Shown piece after piece: positions 20,234-30,387 of a DNA stretch of 64,000 bases. The DNA is from Alteromonas sp. ALT199 (GTDB taxonomy: Bacteria > Pseudomonadota > Gammaproteobacteria > Enterobacterales > Alteromonadaceae), in NCBI RefSeq assembly GCF_018619335.1, contig NZ_JAHHDX010000149.1:62001-126000 (forward strand). The letters are read 5' to 3'. The notes beneath the pieces were generated by a model. The model saw only the letters and a list, made by a program, of their open reading frames with translations, was not told the origin of the DNA and searched no databases. The translations under genes and the position numbers were made by a program. Position 1 is the stretch's first letter; each line of letters opens with the position of its first letter.

Positions 20234-23200
20234 ATGATTAATGAGGGTAACACACAAAAGTATAAGCTGAGCAAATCAGCTAAAGTTGTAAACGCGCTGT
20301 TGGCCGGTGCTTTGTCTCTAGGCGTGATATCGGTTAATGCTTCGGCAGACACGCTCTGGCAAGAAGATTTTGAAGCCAGCGAGTTACAAGGAAAAGGCGC
20401 AACAGGTTCTGATCCCGGAGGGGCTGTTCTTAGCCTTGAGGGAGTAGAGCGTTGGTCAGTTGATGTTTCTGCAGGCGCTTTGACTGCAACTACAGATTGG
20501 TTTCGTGTAGAAAATGGCGCTATGCAAGCTCGCGATGTCGATGGTGAAGTGGTTTGGTTGAGTGAATCAATTGATATCGCTAGTGCGGGTGAAGTTACTA
20601 TCAATGCAGCACTTTCTCAAAGCGGAACATTTGAAACGGCAGACTACGTCGACGTATTTTACTCACTAGATGGTGGTGCTTTTGAGCTTATAACGCTCAC
20701 TGAAGGGACATCAAATACCGTCCAAGATGATTTCGGTAATGCCACGATAAATGAGACAATTGGAAGTGGAAGCACGTTAGTATTAAAAGTTGCTATGGCC
20801 AATAATTCTAGCTCTGAATACCTAAATTTAGACAGCATTTCGGTTAGCGGTGAGGGTACCAACGATGGCGGCGACAATGGCGATGGTGGCGATAACCCCG
20901 ATAATGGTGGTGAACCTACAAACGAACTTCTTTCCTTAAGCGGTACTTGCTTTAATTGCCCGGATTTAGAGGCGATTAATTTAGCGAGTAATTTTGTCGC
21001 TTCAGACTACTATGCCGCATTAGATACAGCTATTGCTAACGGCGATAGTGCACAAACACTGAAAGAAACAACGCATAACATCATTGAAAATGGTCATCGC
21101 ACACTATCATATTCTGAAGTATGGACCGCGCTTACCTATACCGATGAAGACCCTGCAGATACCGACAATGTCATCCTTTTCTATAAAGGAATATCACAAG
21201 GTAAGTTTACCAACGGAAGCGGCAGCCAAAGTAGTAACCAAGAAAACTGGAATCGCGAACATGTTTGGGCAAAAAGCCATGGTTTCTCGAGCTCAAGCTT
21301 AACTGCATACAGTGATATCCTTCACCTACGTCCAACTGATATTTCAGTAAATAGCTCCCGCGGGAACTTAGATTTTGACTTCAGCGATAGCCCTCTAAGT
21401 GAAGCGCCAGCGAACCGCGTTGATAGCGATTCTTTCGAACCGCGCGATGCAGTGAAAGGCGACGTTGCTCGCTCTATGCTTTATATGGATGTGCGTTACG
21501 ACGGTAACACCGCAGGTGATACGGAAGAAGATTTAGTCTTGTTAAATCGTCTAACCTCTACCGACGAAGCTGCATTTGGCAAGCTTTGTGTGCTACTTCA
21601 ATGGCATGAGAGCGACCCAGTTGATGAATTTGAGCTTCGCCGTAACGAGCGTGTGTTTGAATTCCAAGGGAACCGTAACCCGTTTATCGATAAGCCTGAA
21701 CTTGCTTCACTTATCTATAACGAAAGCTGCGATGGTACAGGCGGTGACACTGGCGGTGATACTGGCGGTGATACTGGTGGAGACACTGGTGGAGATACAG
21801 GGGGCGATACCGGTGGCGAAGATTCAGTACCGTCAACCAATAGCGTTTACATATCAGAGTATATTGAGGGTGGTAGCTTTAACAAAGCGATAGAGCTTTT
21901 CAATAGCTCGACTCAGCCTGTGAACTTGTCTGGCTATGAGTTAGTTTTACTTTCAAATGGTGATACTGCCGACGCCGACCGTAAAGTACTAGCGCTTGAG
22001 GGCGAAATTCCTGCAGGTGGCGTAGCAACATTCGCTCACGCCGACGCTGATGCCTTACTAACAACTGGCTCTACAATCAGCAGTTTCGTAATGAACTTCA
22101 ACGGCGATGATTACGTTGAGTTGGTATATAACGGTCAAGTTGTTGATGCATTAGGTACTTTTGGCGTTAAGACTAATTGGGGGAAAGACGTCACGTTAGT
22201 ACGTAAGAGTTCAGTGACAGGCGGAAACCCTAACCGCAACCCTGCGTTTACTCTTGACGAATGGGATAGCTTTGCAAAAGATACGTTAAGTAATTTTGGT
22301 TCTCACAACGGTTCAGTAAGTGAACCAACAGACCCTACGGACCCAACGGATCCGACGGACCCAACAGATCCTATTGCTGAAATAGTTCTTATCAGCGCAA
22401 TTCAAGGTGATGGTGAAGAATCATCGCTTGTCGGCACGGATGTTATTGTAGAAGCAGTAGTAACTAAAGTTGTACCAGCCATGAGCGGTTTCTTTGTTCA
22501 GGAAGAAGCAAGTGATTCAGACGGTAATACGGCAACTTCTGAAGCTGTTTTTGTTTACGCCGGCTCATTTGGTCTACCAGAAGCAGGTGATGCGGTGCGT
22601 TTGCTAGGTACAGTAGGTGAGCGCTTTGGTGTAACCCAATTAACTCTGTCTGCAGAACTTGAGGTTACGGGTGTAGGTAGTAATGTGCTTTACACACCGG
22701 TTGCTATGCCGTTTAGCCTTGATACTGATTTAGAAGCACTAGAGGGCATGCATATTAGTTTTGAGCAAACCCTTAAAGTTTCTGACATCTATAATCTTGG
22801 ACGTTATGGTCAGTTCAACGTGTCTTCAAAACGCTTAATGATACCTACCAACCAATTTGTAGCAGGTTCAGAAGAGGCGTTAGCACTAGCGGAAATTAAT
22901 GCACGCAACACCTTATTGGTTGATGACGGAGAAACATCACAGAATTTAGATGATATTCCTTTCCCTGTAGGTGGTTTATCTCACAACAATCCACTGCGTT
23001 TGGGAGACAGTGTAGAGGCTCTTGAAGGTGTATTACATTATGCCTTTGGTGCTTACAACCTCATCCCTGTTGGTGATATTCAAACCGTACGCACTAACCC
23101 GCGAATTGCTGCACCACAGCTAAATGCTATCGGTGACGTGAAAGTGGCTAGCTTTAACGTACTCAATTACTTCAATGGCCCGGAATTCCCGACCTCGCGA

Positions 23201-24259
23201 GGCGCAGATTCAGATGCTGAATTTGAACGCCAGAAAGCGAAAACCATTGCAGCTATTGTAGCGATGAATGCCGATGTACTTGGCCTTGTTGAAATTGAAA
23301 ACGATGGTTATAGCAGTGATTCTGCAATTGCGACATTAGTTGACAGCGTTAACGCTGAACTGGGCAGCGATGAGTACAGCTACGTTGCGTTGGAATCTCT
23401 ATTAGGCGGTGACGAAATTGCTGTTGGTATAATCTATAAGCCTGCTGTAGTTTCGCTACAGGGTTACCCTGTGACTTCATCTGATGCACCCTTTGACTAT
23501 GGCAACCGTCAACCTCTACTACAAAGCTTTAGTGTAAACAGTAATGGTGAAGACTTTACCTTAGCGATAAACCACTTTAAGTCGAAAAGTTGTGGTGACG
23601 CGACAGGCAACAACGCAGACTCAGGAGACGGTCAAGGGTGTTGGAACGAACTGCGTACCCAAGCAGCACAAGGCCTAACTTCTCTTGTTGAGCAAAATAG
23701 TGATGTCTTGTCTGACCGCGTTGTCGTAATGGGTGATTTGAATGCCTATGCGAAAGAAGAGCCTATCCTTGCGCTTGAAGAGGCTGGCTACAGCAACTTG
23801 GTTAACTTCTTCGATGGCGATAGTGCATATTCGTATAGCTTCGGCGGCGAAATGGGTTACCTAGATCACGCTTTATCGAGCCCATCTTTGACTGAATATG
23901 TGGTAGACGCAACGGTGTGGCACATTAATGCCGATGAACCTCGCGTGTTCGACTATAACGTTGAATTTAAGACTGAAACTCAGCTTTCTAGTTACTACGG
24001 CGCTGATGCGTATCGCTCGTCAGATCACGACCCAGTACTTGTTGTGTTGGATTTCCCTGAAGCGAGTGAGCCAGTTATTGGTGATTTTGATGGCGATAGT
24101 GACGTGGATAATATCGATATTGTGGCGTTCTATACCTTGCTTCTACAGCGTCAAGCGACGGTTGAAGAGCATGACTTCAATAATGATGGCAGATTAAATA
24201 TTTATGATCTGTACGCGTTAATGTCTATGTGTACACGCACTGCATGTGCAACTCAGTAG
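20234..24259 (+). CDS. Secreted multidomain nuclease with C-terminal dockerin
   Basis: A 1341-residue exported protein. Order: signal peptide (1 to about 38); a beta-rich domain (40-205); a Gly/Asp linker; an endonuclease I (EndA/NucM-type His-Me finger) domain at about 230-500 with NREHVWAKSHGF at 340-351; a TGGD-repeat linker (about 502-529); a lamin-tail domain (about 537-690); a TDP-repeat linker; an OB-fold-like region (715-850); an endonuclease/exonuclease/phosphatase domain (969 to about 1275) with ASFNVLNYF, VEIENDGY, GDLNAY and SSDHDPV; and a dockerin with two calcium loops (1284-1295 and 1314-1325). The second half is the ExeM/NucH type. Two nuclease domains in one chain are unusual. 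The dockerin implies binding to a cohesin, and the next gene encodes a candidate. Confidence 0.92.
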   Translation: MINEGNTQKYKLSKSAKVVNALLAGALSLGVISVNASADTLWQEDFEASELQGKGATGSDPGGAVLSLEGVERWSVDVSAGALTATTDWFRVENGAMQARDVDGEVVWLSESIDIASAGEVTINAALSQSGTFETADYVDVFYSLDGGAFELITLTEGTSNTVQDDFGNATINETIGSGSTLVLKVAMANNSSSEYLNLDSISVSGEGTNDGGDNGDGGDNPDNGGEPTNELLSLSGTCFNCPDLEAINLASNFVASDYYAALDTAIANGDSAQTLKETTHNIIENGHRTLSYSEVWTALTYTDEDPADTDNVILFYKGISQGKFTNGSGSQSSNQENWNREHVWAKSHGFSSSSLTAYSDILHLRPTDISVNSSRGNLDFDFSDSPLSEAPANRVDSDSFEPRDAVKGDVARSMLYMDVRYDGNTAGDTEEDLVLLNRLTSTDEAAFGKLCVLLQWHESDPVDEFELRRNERVFEFQGNRNPFIDKPELASLIYNESCDGTGGDTGGDTGGDTGGDTGGDTGGDTGGEDSVPSTNSVYISEYIEGGSFNKAIELFNSSTQPVNLSGYELVLLSNGDTADADRKVLALEGEIPAGGVATFAHADADALLTTGSTISSFVMNFNGDDYVELVYNGQVVDALGTFGVKTNWGKDVTLVRKSSVTGGNPNRNPAFTLDEWDSFAKDTLSNFGSHNGSVSEPTDPTDPTDPTDPTDPIAEIVLISAIQGDGEESSLVGTDVIVEAVVTKVVPAMSGFFVQEEASDSDGNTATSEAVFVYAGSFGLPEAGDAVRLLGTVGERFGVTQLTLSAELEVTGVGSNVLYTPVAMPFSLDTDLEALEGMHISFEQTLKVSDIYNLGRYGQFNVSSKRLMIPTNQFVAGSEEALALAEINARNTLLVDDGETSQNLDDIPFPVGGLSHNNPLRLGDSVEALEGVLHYAFGAYNLIPVGDIQTVRTNPRIAAPQLNAIGDVKVASFNVLNYFNGPEFPTSRGADSDAEFERQKAKTIAAIVAMNADVLGLVEIENDGYSSDSAIATLVDSVNAELGSDEYSYVALESLLGGDEIAVGIIYKPAVVSLQGYPVTSSDAPFDYGNRQPLLQSFSVNSNGEDFTLAINHFKSKSCGDATGNNADSGDGQGCWNELRTQAAQGLTSLVEQNSDVLSDRVVVMGDLNAYAKEEPILALEEAGYSNLVNFFDGDSAYSYSFGGEMGYLDHALSSPSLTEYVVDATVWHINADEPRVFDYNVEFKTETQLSSYYGADAYRSSDHDPVLVVLDFPEASEPVIGDFDGDSDVDNIDIVAFYTLLLQRQATVEEHDFNNDGRLNIYDLYALMSMCTRTACATQ
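21737..21820 (+). repeat. 12-bp tandem repeat coding for TGGD linker
   Basis: Seven tandem units of 12 bases encode six TGGD and one TGGE. They form a flexible acidic linker between the endonuclease I and lamin-tail domains. Unit-to-unit third-base differences are few, so the number of copies may vary between strains. Confidence 0.9.
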
Positions 24260-24270
24260 TTGGAAAGAAA

Positions 24271-24879
24271 ATGAAAAAAATTATTTTAATGGTATTGGCA
24301 ATTGCAACTTTTAGTGCAAATGCCGCAATAATTGAAATCTCTACGGATAAATCAATTTATCAAGTAGGGGAAACTATCACGGCAACGGTTAGTTTTTCTA
24401 ATGAAGATGCTTTTTTAGGAAATGTACCGTTTGTTCAAGCTTTTGACGTATATAATACTACTATTGGATTTGATGAAGCGCTTATCAGTTTTATGGGGGC
24501 AACTACGCTAAATCCATTCGGTAGCTTTTTTAATTTTGTCGAGCCTGTTGCGGAGTTCTTTTTACCTCCATTTCCTAGCGCTGGCTTCTTAGAAGTTGGA
24601 TCCTTAGCTTTAAATGAAAAGATTGATTTACTTTATCAATTACAGACGCCTGTAATTGACCTATACAGCATTCAATTTATAGCGCAGTCTGTAGGAGATA
24701 CTTCTATCAATGGATTATCAGCTTCGTATATTTTTCAAGGCTCTCAAGGAGGCACAATAGAACCTGTGGAAATAAACAGCACAAGCTTCACCATCGCTCA
24801 GGTCCCTGCACCAGGTACCTTCACGCTATCGCTTCTTGCTTTAGGTGGTATGCTTTTCGCTCGTAAGCGTGCGAAGTAA
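24271..24879 (+). CDS. Cohesin-like protein with PEP-CTERM-like anchor
   Basis: A 202-residue exported protein. The signal peptide is about residues 1-19. The body (20-170) is beta-rich, with YQVGETITATVSFSN, FDVYNTTIGFDEALISFMGA and YSIQFIAQSVGDTSI, which follows the pattern of cohesin modules. The C-terminus VPAPGTFTLSLLALGGM plus FARKRAK has the Pro-rich motif, hydrophobic segment and basic tail of PEP-CTERM sorting signals, here with PAP for PEP. It starts 11 bases after the dockerin-bearing nuclease gene and should be cotranscribed. ATG 24271 is chosen because it gives a clean signal peptide. The cohesin call is motif-level; other PEP-CTERM beta-sandwich proteins are the alternative. Confidence 0.7.
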   Translation: MKKIILMVLAIATFSANAAIIEISTDKSIYQVGETITATVSFSNEDAFLGNVPFVQAFDVYNTTIGFDEALISFMGATTLNPFGSFFNFVEPVAEFFLPPFPSAGFLEVGSLALNEKIDLLYQLQTPVIDLYSIQFIAQSVGDTSINGLSASYIFQGSQGGTIEPVEINSTSFTIAQVPAPGTFTLSLLALGGMLFARKRAK

Positions 24880-24903
24880 TAAACCTTAAATGCTAAAAGT
24901 TTA

Positions 24904-24930
24904 AGCCCAGCCAAGTGCTGGGCTTTTTTA
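24904..24930 (+). terminator. Terminator after the cohesin-like gene
   Basis: An 8-bp stem AGCCCAGC / GCTGGGCT with loop CAAGT is followed by a T-run. It ends the nuclease-cohesin unit. Confidence 0.9.
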
Positions 24931-28073: not shown

Positions 28074-28530
28074 AAGGGTACGAAATACACAATGGTAATT
28101 AAAAGATAATAGATACCAAGTGGTTACGCAATGTACTGCGCTAATTAGTTAGGGTAGGTTTAGGGTTACCCGCTAAAGAGCATTTAATAGGCTATCAATT
28201 ATCGAATGTTAACATCGGCTTGAGCAGAACCATTTTCATCGCGAAGCGCAATGCAACAAATAATTCATAAACTGACCAAGTAGCCCAGCTTTTATTAATT
28301 ATACATTCAATAAACATATATTTTATGCAGGCTACACCAGTTGTACTGGCTTACTCTGTTCTACCTTTCAAATCCTAGTGTCAATAAAACTTCATTTTGG
28401 TGTCAATTCACTGTCACTAGACTGTCACAAATGTCCTCCAGACTTTTCGCCCGCAAAGACCGTTTATTGAGGTGAGACTTCTACTTGCCTCCACTTAAAA
28501 CTTTAAAAAAAATATAAGCAAGGAACCATA
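28074..28530. other. Gene-free region with divergent promoters
   Basis: This 457-base gap separates the kinase (minus) from the PhoX-like gene (plus). It is AT-rich in the middle. The only clear structure is the Pho-box array at 28378-28428; the AAGCAAGGAACC ribosome binding site of the PhoX-like gene lies at the right end. Confidence 0.6.
28378..28428 (+). promoter_or_regulatory. Array of Pho-box half-sites upstream of phoX-like gene
   Basis: Half-sites resembling CTGTCAT recur every 11 bases: GTGTCAA at 28378, a weak ACTTCAT at 28389, GTGTCAA at 28400, CTGTCAC at 28411 and CTGTCAC at 28422. The last two, with the 4-base spacer TAGA, form a near-consensus PhoB box. The array ends about 100 bases before the ATG of a phosphatase gene, which fits phosphate-starvation control. 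Confidence 0.8.
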
Positions 28531-30387
28531 ATGAAAAGCGAAACTCTTCGTGGAATTAAATATTCAGCGATAGCTCTAGCTGTAACACTTGGAATGACAG
28601 CCTGTTCACTAGAGGGTGATGACGGTGAAGATGGCGTACAGGGTCCAGTTGGTGAACAAGGTCCAGTAGGCGACCAAGGCCTCGCAGGTGAGCAAGGTCC
28701 AGAAGGAGATACCGCGGGCACACTAACACGTATTGCTACGGTTCCTCTTGGCGCGGAAGTTACCGGTATTTTCTTAACTGATGAAGGTGATTTGTTTTTC
28801 AACGTACAGCATCCTTCAGGCACTAATGCTGCGACTACAAGCGTTAACGATATGCCTATCAATACAGGCACTGTAGGTGTACTTGCAGGCGCTAACTTCA
28901 ATAACTTGCCTGTTACTTTGCCAAATTCTCCAGTACCTAGCTCTGACGAAGAAAAAGAGCTGGTTATTTCTGCTATCGGCCAATATCAAGTGCTAGGTCA
29001 AACGGGAGATACCTTCGATGCTGACTTACCAGAAGGCTTAGGCCATATCTACACACTTGATGGCGAAGAGTTAGTGTTAGAAAACGATATGCCTGACTTT
29101 AACGGCTTTATTTCAACTGCCGAAGGCGAAGGGTACCTCTTTTCAAACTGGGAAGAACTACCTGGCGGTATGAGCCGCATGAAAGTAGAGAAAGATGAAT
29201 TCGGTATGTGGGAAGTCACAGAAGCAATGATGCTAGATTTCTCGTCAGTATGGGGTACAGCTGCTAACTGCTTCGGTTCAATGTCACCATGGGGTACGCC
29301 GCTTACATCTGAAGAGTGGGTGGTAAATTCGGCAGTAGACACAACTACGTCACCTAGTTGGAATAACCCAGAGGCTGTTTCGACAGATGCGCGTTTAGGT
29401 CGTATGTGGCAAATGACAGCACCAGATGCGCCAAACCCTTATAACTATGGCTTCATTGCAGAAGTGACAGAGCCATTGGCTGATGAGCCGGTGATTGTAA
29501 AACATTTCACTATGGGCCGTTACGAGCACGAAAACTCAACAGTAATGCCTGATGGAAAAACCGTATATCTTTCTCAAGATGACACCGGCGGCGTACTATT
29601 TAAGTTCGTTGCTGACACCGCAGAAGACTTATCAGCAGGTACGCTTTATGGCGCTAAACTTACTCAAGACGTGGGTCAAAACGACCCTGCAACAACGGGT
29701 TTTTCCGTTGAATGGGTAGAACTAGCCAGTGGCGACAATATGACTATTCGCGCATGGATAGACGAGTACAACGGCATTGGTACCGACGATTACGTAGATG
29801 GCCAAAGCTCTTACATCACAATGGCCGACGTTCAAGCATGGGCAGATGGCGATGCTACTTACCCAACGGTAGAAGAGGGCGGTTCTAGCGTAACAGCAGG
29901 GCAGCCAATGGACGACCGCGTTGCATTTTTAGAAAGTCGTGCGGCGGCCCGTCTTAAAGGCGCGACGGCAGAATGGAGAAAACTTGAAGGTATCTCTATT
30001 AACCAAAAACGCGCACAAGAAGCCGTAGAGGGTGTTGATACTATTGAAGGTGAAGTAGTAGAAAATGCGTACCTTTATATCGGCATCGCTGATATCGACA
30101 ACACAATGATTGATGATGAAGGCGATATGCAGCTTTCAGCCCGCGTTAAAGATTGTGGTGGTGTTTATCGCGCCCAGCTAGAAGATGGCTACAACATTTC
30201 TCGCATCGAACCTGTAGTGATGGGCGGTACGTACCGTTCAAGCCTGACAGGTGCAGAGCGTTGTGACGTTGAGCAGCTTTCTCAACCAGATAACGTTGTA
30301 GTTATGAACGACGGCCGTATTCTTATCGGTGAAGACGGTTTCCAAGAAAACAACACGCTGTGGATGTATGAACCAGCAGATAAGTAA
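28531..30387 (+). CDS. PhoX-like alkaline phosphatase, lipoprotein with collagen-like stalk
   Basis: A 618-residue protein of the DUF839/PhoX family. The signal peptide ends in LGMTAC, a plausible lipobox. Residues about 30-62 are Gly-X-Y triplets (GPVGEQGPVGDQGLAGEQGP), a short collagen-like stalk. The body shows GSMSPWGTPLTSEEW, HFTMGRYEHENST and LSQDDTGGVLFKF, the family's metal- and phosphate-site segments. It would release phosphate from esters at the cell surface. PhoX proteins are usually exported by Tat as soluble enzymes; this one has a lipoprotein-type signal without a twin arginine. The Pho-box array upstream supports the role. Confidence 0.88.
   Translation: MKSETLRGIKYSAIALAVTLGMTACSLEGDDGEDGVQGPVGEQGPVGDQGLAGEQGPEGDTAGTLTRIATVPLGAEVTGIFLTDEGDLFFNVQHPSGTNAATTSVNDMPINTGTVGVLAGANFNNLPVTLPNSPVPSSDEEKELVISAIGQYQVLGQTGDTFDADLPEGLGHIYTLDGEELVLENDMPDFNGFISTAEGEGYLFSNWEELPGGMSRMKVEKDEFGMWEVTEAMMLDFSSVWGTAANCFGSMSPWGTPLTSEEWVVNSAVDTTTSPSWNNPEAVSTDARLGRMWQMTAPDAPNPYNYGFIAEVTEPLADEPVIVKHFTMGRYEHENSTVMPDGKTVYLSQDDTGGVLFKFVADTAEDLSAGTLYGAKLTQDVGQNDPATTGFSVEWVELASGDNMTIRAWIDEYNGIGTDDYVDGQSSYITMADVQAWADGDATYPTVEEGGSSVTAGQPMDDRVAFLESRAAARLKGATAEWRKLEGISINQKRAQEAVEGVDTIEGEVVENAYLYIGIADIDNTMIDDEGDMQLSARVKDCGGVYRAQLEDGYNISRIEPVVMGGTYRSSLTGAERCDVEQLSQPDNVVVMNDGRILIGEDGFQENNTLWMYEPADK

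Follow-up and report, generated by a model that had tools for sequence, protein, structure and literature searches.

A cohesin–dockerin pair appears to form a one-to-one anchor for an extracellular nuclease in Alteromonas

The locus described here lies in a window of 64,000 nucleotides from Alteromonas sp. ALT199 (assembly GCF_018619335.1, contig NZ_JAHHDX010000149.1, positions 62,001 to 126,000 of the forward strand) and consists of a gene for a large secreted nuclease followed by a gene for a small secreted protein, which together appear to make up a cohesin–dockerin pair (Table 1; coordinates are those of the window). The nuclease passes the cut-off of the NCBIfam model for ExeM/NucH nucleases, NF033681, and stays under that of NF033680, which describes full-length ExeM with a GlyGly-CTERM tail (429.7 against 1300 bits); its tail is a dockerin. 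Two unrelated nuclease domains, endonuclease I and the EEP domain, are joined in this one protein, with linkers that consist of GGDT and DPT repeats. The catalytic motifs of both nuclease domains are in place.

Table 1. Features of the nuclease–cohesin locus, with positions in the 64,000-nucleotide window
Feature	Positions	Strand	Evidence
Secreted nuclease, 1341 aa: endonuclease I, lamin tail, ExeM/NucH EEP nuclease, C-terminal dockerin	20234..24259	+	
Endonuclease I domain, residues 274-489	21053..21700	+	PF04231, E 3.9e-41; motifs NREHVWAKSHG and HLRPTD present
Lamin tail domain, residues 533-641	21830..22156	+	PF00932, E 1.1e-14
ExeM/NucH nuclease core, residues 739-1273	22448..24052	+	NF033681, 620.4 bits (cut-off 300); SDHDPV at 24020-24037
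Dockerin type I, residues 1283-1330	24080..24223	+	PF00404, 27.7 bits on last 130 aa
Dockerin calcium loop 1, residues 1284-1295, DFDGDSDVDNID	24083..24118	+	
Dockerin calcium loop 2, residues 1314-1325, DFNNDGRLNIYD	24173..24208	+	
CTRTAC motif closing the dockerin	24230..24247	+	Both Cys in at least 90% of 37 relatives
Secreted single-cohesin protein with PEP-CTERM-like tail, 202 aa	24271..24879	+	
Cohesin domain of about 155 residues, taken for the profile without signal peptide and tail	24325..24795	+	Family profile retrieves cohesins from the PDB, best E 1.6e-15 (3l8q)
PEP-CTERM-like sorting tail: VPAPG, hydrophobic stretch, ARKRAK	24802..24876	+	18.7 bits (cut-off 20.7, Pfam); 12.3 bits (cut-off 16, TIGR02595)
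Terminator-like hairpin 3' of the cohesin gene	24903..24925	+	

An earlier sequence-only reading of this DNA had placed a two-loop dockerin at the end of the nuclease, and both loops were found at exactly the residues that it gave (Table 1). A search with the Pfam model Dockerin_1 (PF00404), which the same reading had proposed as a check, matched the last 130 residues with an E value of 3.1e-6, over the cut-off of 22.9 bits, and the whole protein just below it (22.8 bits, E 1.1e-4). In an alignment of 37 of the 63 dockerin tails collected from related genomes, as described later, the Asp columns of the loops are invariant or more than 90% conserved, and 34 of these 37 tails match PF00404 (E ≤ 0.01).

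The second gene starts with the ATG at 24271, 11 bp past the stop codon of the nuclease, and this start is preceded by GGAAAG. A GTG at 24229 was considered as an alternative start and set aside because the relatives align from the ATG (it should be said that the script sought that start). Judged by eye, the N-terminus of the protein resembles a signal peptide, and the C-terminus reads VPAPG-TFTLSLLALGGMLFA-RKRAK. The earlier observation that the gene 11 bp downstream encodes a secreted cohesin-type protein with a PEP-CTERM-like tail is confirmed. No terminator-like hairpin is listed between the two genes, and terminator-like sites in the region are no commoner than in shuffled sequences (4 against a mean of 5.6).

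The cohesin assignment is made because a family profile finds cohesins of solved structure, and not by a match of the single protein. With phmmer, the best hit of the window protein in the PDB has an E value of 0.32, and the Pfam model Cohesin (PF00963) has no match at E ≤ 1 anywhere in the genome. The window protein alone, used as query, found matches, some of them weak, in 35 of 146 related genomes including its own (E ≤ 0.01). The 44 proteins encoded next to dockerin nucleases form one family even when signal peptide and tail are removed: in leave-one-out searches, in which the remaining 43 made up the profile, the worst E value was 1.6e-7. In a search of 177635 PDB sequences, the family profile ranks 19 entries for scaffoldins, cellulosome-anchoring proteins, dockerin-binding proteins and NagJ ahead of the first other protein (E 0.033). 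The best match is 3l8q, and other ScaB cohesins follow at 5e-8; in the NagJ chains, we take the matched module to be the cohesin. PF00963 matches 10 of the 44 members singly (E ≤ 0.05, best 1.3e-6); for the window protein alone, the check with this model, also proposed earlier, gave no match (see below). Homology of the window protein to cohesins is established through the family profile, that is, by sequence comparison.

A search of the 146 related genomes for ExeM/NucH nucleases (E ≤ 1e-40) yielded 140 matches in 101 genomes. Of these, 139 were taken together with their downstream DNA, the one left aside being the 5' part of a gene that is split in G136. Exclusion of locus L104 (G046), which is cut by a contig end, left 138 informative C-termini (G and L numbers are our handles for genomes and loci). 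Classed by hidden Markov model (HMM), 63 of these end in a dockerin and 75 do not; the label GlyGly used for some of the others comes from a permissive pattern that also takes in some false cases (e.g., L044 and L103), and its count underlies no claim made here. A cohesin gene directly follows the nuclease in 44 of the 63 dockerin cases versus none of the 75 others (Fisher 2.6e-21, kinship ignored). A profile search of all open frames in the stretches analyzed, which extend 1136 bases or more past each of the 75 nuclease genes, left these figures unchanged. Two of the non-dockerin nucleases (L100 and L148) have another small gene in that place, Dps-like and PEP-CTERM-like by eye. At L028 (G046), which was not counted, the dockerin frame is broken in the second loop near a contig end and the cohesin gene behind it is open, reflecting assembly error or decay.

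The same pairing was seen in a named collection, of which the best 80 of at least 556 confirmed loci were analyzed. A dockerin was detected by HMM in 20 of the 80 (E < 1e-6), and 15 of these 20 have an adjoining cohesin; at one further locus (L185), a cohesin accompanies a dockerin that escaped the HMM, and none of the remaining 59 has a cohesin. The resulting 16 named pairs come from Alteromonas, Colwellia, Paraglaciecola, Bowmanella, Rheinheimera and two unclassified bacteria, several of them from genomes that are also in the first set.

Because kinship inflates such adjacency counts, we examined the exchange of cohesin and dockerin types. Three pairs, referred to as type B (G071, G077 and L185), have a divergent dockerin that lacks the CTRxxC end. 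Their cohesins are mutually nearest, as are their dockerins, whereas their catalytic domains have their closest relatives among the ordinary pairs. In a partial Mantel test on 53 pairs (G038 and L162 are the same genome and were entered once), cohesin and dockerin distances correlate when the distance between catalytic domains is given (r 0.168; 10 of 2000 permutations as high), and the correlation persists without type B (r 0.210, 50 pairs; 0 of 2000 permutations as high). There is thus a modest correlation between cohesin and dockerin beyond that of the catalytic domain.

The cohesin family also occurs away from nucleases. In 24 genomes searched, 12 family cohesins were found in nine, five of them nuclease partners and seven elsewhere. 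Five of these seven directly follow another dockerin-tailed gene (L154, L157, L158, L159 and L161). The cargo at L154 has a porphyranase A C-terminal domain and Big_2, that at L157 is a PKD/REJ protein, which the cargo at L158 resembles by eye, and that at L161 is a Big_7 protein; the cargo at L159 has no named domain beyond EF-hand. In a class-level draw of 369 genomes, the cohesin family is present in 22 (E ≤ 0.001), and 10 of 20 new loci have a dockerin, either within the cohesin gene itself or next to it, versus 0 of 15 control loci, which had been fetched for other reasons. Cargo at this level includes a subtilase (L256) and a glucose/sorbosone dehydrogenase (L258), and at L259 and L260 the dockerin lies near the N-terminus.

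Judged from gene content, the putative two-gene anchoring module is general and not specific to nucleases. One could go further and propose a plug-and-socket system for surface display in aerobic Gram-negative bacteria, in which every large cargo protein that is exported, be it a nuclease, a subtilase, a porphyranase-like protein or a PKD protein, would carry a dockerin, the adjoining gene would supply a dedicated, exosortase-sorted single cohesin, and the pairs would be swapped as units between cargoes and lineages, replacing tails such as GlyGly-CTERM. We consider the odds of this wider proposal to be even.

Anchoring through a PEP-CTERM-like tail had been predicted to depend on an exosortase in the genome, and one was found, of type A (XrtA, 298.6 bits against a cut-off of 208). 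Four other PEP-CTERM-like tails are encoded in this genome at E ≤ 1, one of them over the cut-off. All 63 dockerin-nuclease genomes have an exosortase. Conversely, none of the 19 nuclease genomes without exosortase has the dockerin; outside the genus, the dockerin occurs in 12 of 27 genomes with exosortase versus 0 of 19 (p 0.0005). Tails of the named cohesins were tested on 10 (Pfam) and 4 (NCBIfam) of the 16: 3 of 10 are over the Pfam PEP-CTERM cut-off and 5 of 10 match at E ≤ 0.05, and 4 of 4 are over the cut-off of TIGR02595. The cohesin anchor is probably sorted by exosortase.

The cohesin–dockerin anchor appears to stand in for the GlyGly-CTERM tail of ExeM. The window's genome encodes a second ExeM paralogue (L117, G000:C141:32500-34570), which by eye has a GlyGly-CTERM tail, and a rhombosortase. 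In Alteromonadaceae bacterium XY-R5 (G073; loci L171, L047 and L053), two adjoining nucleases are sisters on the tree, one with dockerin and cohesin and one with GlyGly-CTERM. For Vibrio Xds and Shewanella ExeM, the available text of PMC6219818 considers it likely that a large fraction is kept at the surface through the GlyGly tail and rhombosortase.

Taken together, the nuclease appears to be kept at the cell or in its matrix by a one-to-one anchor. Specifically, we propose, with a probability of roughly 0.7, that it is held at the surface or in the matrix in trans by a single, exosortase-sorted cohesin that binds its dockerin. The nuclease would be exported and fold outside the cell, where the calcium of seawater would keep the dockerin folded. 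The monovalent cohesin would enter the envelope by means of its own signal peptide, and recognition of its PEP-CTERM-like tail by exosortase A would lead to its transfer to the outer surface or to exopolysaccharide. There it would capture the nuclease dockerin in a 1:1 manner, and DNA would be cut near the cell or inside the matrix. Such an anchor would do in trans the job presumed for GlyGly-CTERM and rhombosortase in cis in ExeM enzymes elsewhere, among them the paralogue encoded by the window's genome.

A one-to-one anchor, rather than a multienzyme complex, is proposed because a single dockerin over the Pfam cut-off and a single family cohesin are encoded in the genome. The search for other dockerin proteins suggested by the sequence-only reading gave five weaker matches at E ≤ 10 and no other over that cut-off. 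The small nucleic-acid-degrading complex envisaged at the time therefore comes down to one dockerin and one cohesin, of a module that also occurs with non-nuclease cargo. Alternatively, several of the cell's dockerin proteins could share the cohesin, which would then not be a dedicated partner of the nuclease, as one might expect from G014, G054 and G057, which have a dockerin nuclease without a cohesin of its own and other dockerin–cohesin pairs. Given the single dockerin and single cohesin in the present genome, we regard a shared dock as very improbable here.

Several results weigh against the proposed anchor. The window protein, taken alone, has no match to PF00963 at E ≤ 1. An independent-pairs sign test on the tree (80 rows, comprising 60 of the 63 dockerin nucleases and 20 of 76 others) gave about 4 to 0, with a median p of 0.125, which is too small a set for significance. 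No cohesin adjoins 19 of the 63 dockerin nucleases; in 15 of these 19, the cohesin family is missing from the entire genome (E ≤ 0.01), and 13 also lack any PF00963 match (E ≤ 0.1), which entails that a dockerin can persist without a detectable partner. A. lipotrueiana is an example of a cohesin-less strain. Among the 59 cohesin-less loci of the named collection, L178 and L188 have weak dockerin-like nuclease tails. Away from nucleases, the cohesin genes at L156 and L160 have no dockerin in view, the latter lying just before an M4 metallopeptidase gene, and 10 of the 20 class-level cohesin loci lack a dockerin nearby. Finally, the tail of the window cohesin scores below the cut-offs of both PEP-CTERM models (Table 1) and is not among the matches of a genome-wide PEP-CTERM search at E ≤ 1.

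The 13 genomes in which the dockerin is intact and no cohesin is detectable would fit a situation in which no binding takes place between the two proteins. The dockerin would then serve as a cap stabilized by calcium. The cohesin-like protein would act on its own, as a polysaccharide-binding protein of the matrix that exosortase sorts; cohesin folds are, in general, similar to those of carbohydrate-binding modules. Such independence is hard to reconcile with the adjacency counts (44 of 63 versus 0 of 75), with the joint exchange of cohesin and dockerin types and with the occurrence of this cohesin family next to dockerin proteins unrelated to the nuclease, and we consider it unlikely.

The low tail scores bear on another possibility, namely that the pair binds but exosortase does not bring the cohesin tail to the surface. 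The cohesin would then stay in the inner membrane or be cleaved and released, and the nuclease would be periplasmic, held at the membrane or shed as a complex. In line with this, PMC6085458 reports for Shewanella oneidensis that nearly all ExeM was in the fraction of the cytoplasmic membrane and that this held when the putative anchor was missing. The exosortase A of the window's genome, the presence of an exosortase in 44 of 44 cohesin-pair genomes and the named relatives whose tails are over the Pfam cut-off argue for sorting, and we deem an unsorted tail quite improbable. The matching pair with a PEP-CTERM-like anchor that had been read from the sequence is supported by the profile search, the neighborhood counts, the correlated exchange and the exosortase A of the genome; the tail has the layout of a PEP-CTERM signal and scores under both model cut-offs.

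Some of the dockerin nucleases without cohesin have a distinct C-terminus. An extension of 19 to 33 residues past the dockerin is found in 11 of the 19 (L074, L079, L080, L082-L084, L089, L090, L092, L093 and L139) versus none of the 44 with cohesin, and all eleven fall within one clade of twelve on the tree. The extension possibly represents another mode of attachment, or decay. In A. antoniana (G003), the cohesin gene lies between the nuclease gene and an acyl-CoA dehydrogenase-like gene, and in 13 cohesin-less genomes the nuclease gene directly adjoins this gene (recognized by sequence pattern), which indicates that the cohesin gene was lost or gained there.

Cohesin and dockerin modules outside cellulosomes were reportedly surveyed by Peer et al. 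in 2009. As far as the available text of a study of methane-oxidizing archaea goes (PMC5244752), both modules occur outside cellulosomes and their function there is called not known; the modules described here differ from those in that they are conserved as a pair of neighboring genes, have a defined cargo and include a tail of the exosortase type. The pair resembles those of cellulosomes (ScaB; PDB 3l8q and 1zv9) in its cohesin profile and two-loop dockerin and in that the enzyme bears the dockerin and the anchor the cohesin. It differs in that the genome has one family cohesin and no scaffoldin was seen, in that the cargo is a DNase and in that the anchor has a PEP-CTERM-like tail. A cellulosome would be recognized by a scaffoldin with several cohesins and by polysaccharide-degrading cargo; here there is one family cohesin, and the cargo is a nuclease.

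Compared with ExeM of S. oneidensis and Xds of Vibrio cholerae, the nuclease core is the same and those enzymes, too, are thought to be held at the cell (PMC6085458 and PMC6219818, available text); their anchor is the nuclease's own GlyGly-CTERM tail, whereas here it would be a dockerin plus a separate tailed protein. The PEP-CTERM/EpsH system (PMC1569441) shares the layout of the tail, and an exosortase of that type is present in the window's genome, whereas a term search of the main text available finds no cohesin, dockerin or nuclease. In the literature searched, which covers little of the subscription literature, so that prior mention is possible, no publication was found that joins dockerin and PEP-CTERM, or cohesin, dockerin and extracellular nuclease, including in Gammaproteobacteria. 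A dockerin or cohesin domain together with exosortase was found in PMC5244752 only, within the text available.

An anchor of this kind would provide a concrete, testable job for noncellulosomal cohesins and dockerins as well as for PEP-CTERM proteins, and it would connect the sorting of one protein by exosortase with the capture of another, an enzyme. It would explain how Alteromonas-type bacteria stop costly nucleases from diffusing off, and natural 1:1 cohesin–dockerin pairs could be used for surface display in Gram-negative cells. An anchored double-domain DNase may benefit the cell through nutrients, phosphate, matrix turnover or defense. Phosphate or nucleoside capture, the purpose suggested earlier, gained no direct support: with the Pho-box consensus as the pattern, no Pho-box-like match was found upstream of the nuclease gene at up to 3 mismatches. 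Regulation of the nuclease by Pho was set aside; across the window, the pattern gives 18 matches versus 17.8 expected.

Some minor observations concern the surroundings and the wider family. A gene for a PhoX-type alkaline phosphatase (28531-30387, + strand; PF05787, E 4.9e-32) lies about 3.65 kb past the cohesin gene. Three Pho-box-like heptamers, 11 bp apart, precede it at 28400-28428, with the window-wide total of such matches being at chance. Among the class-level loci, L272 has a single open reading frame with cohesin-like and dockerin-like parts, and at L267 one dockerin gene is followed by two cohesin-like genes.

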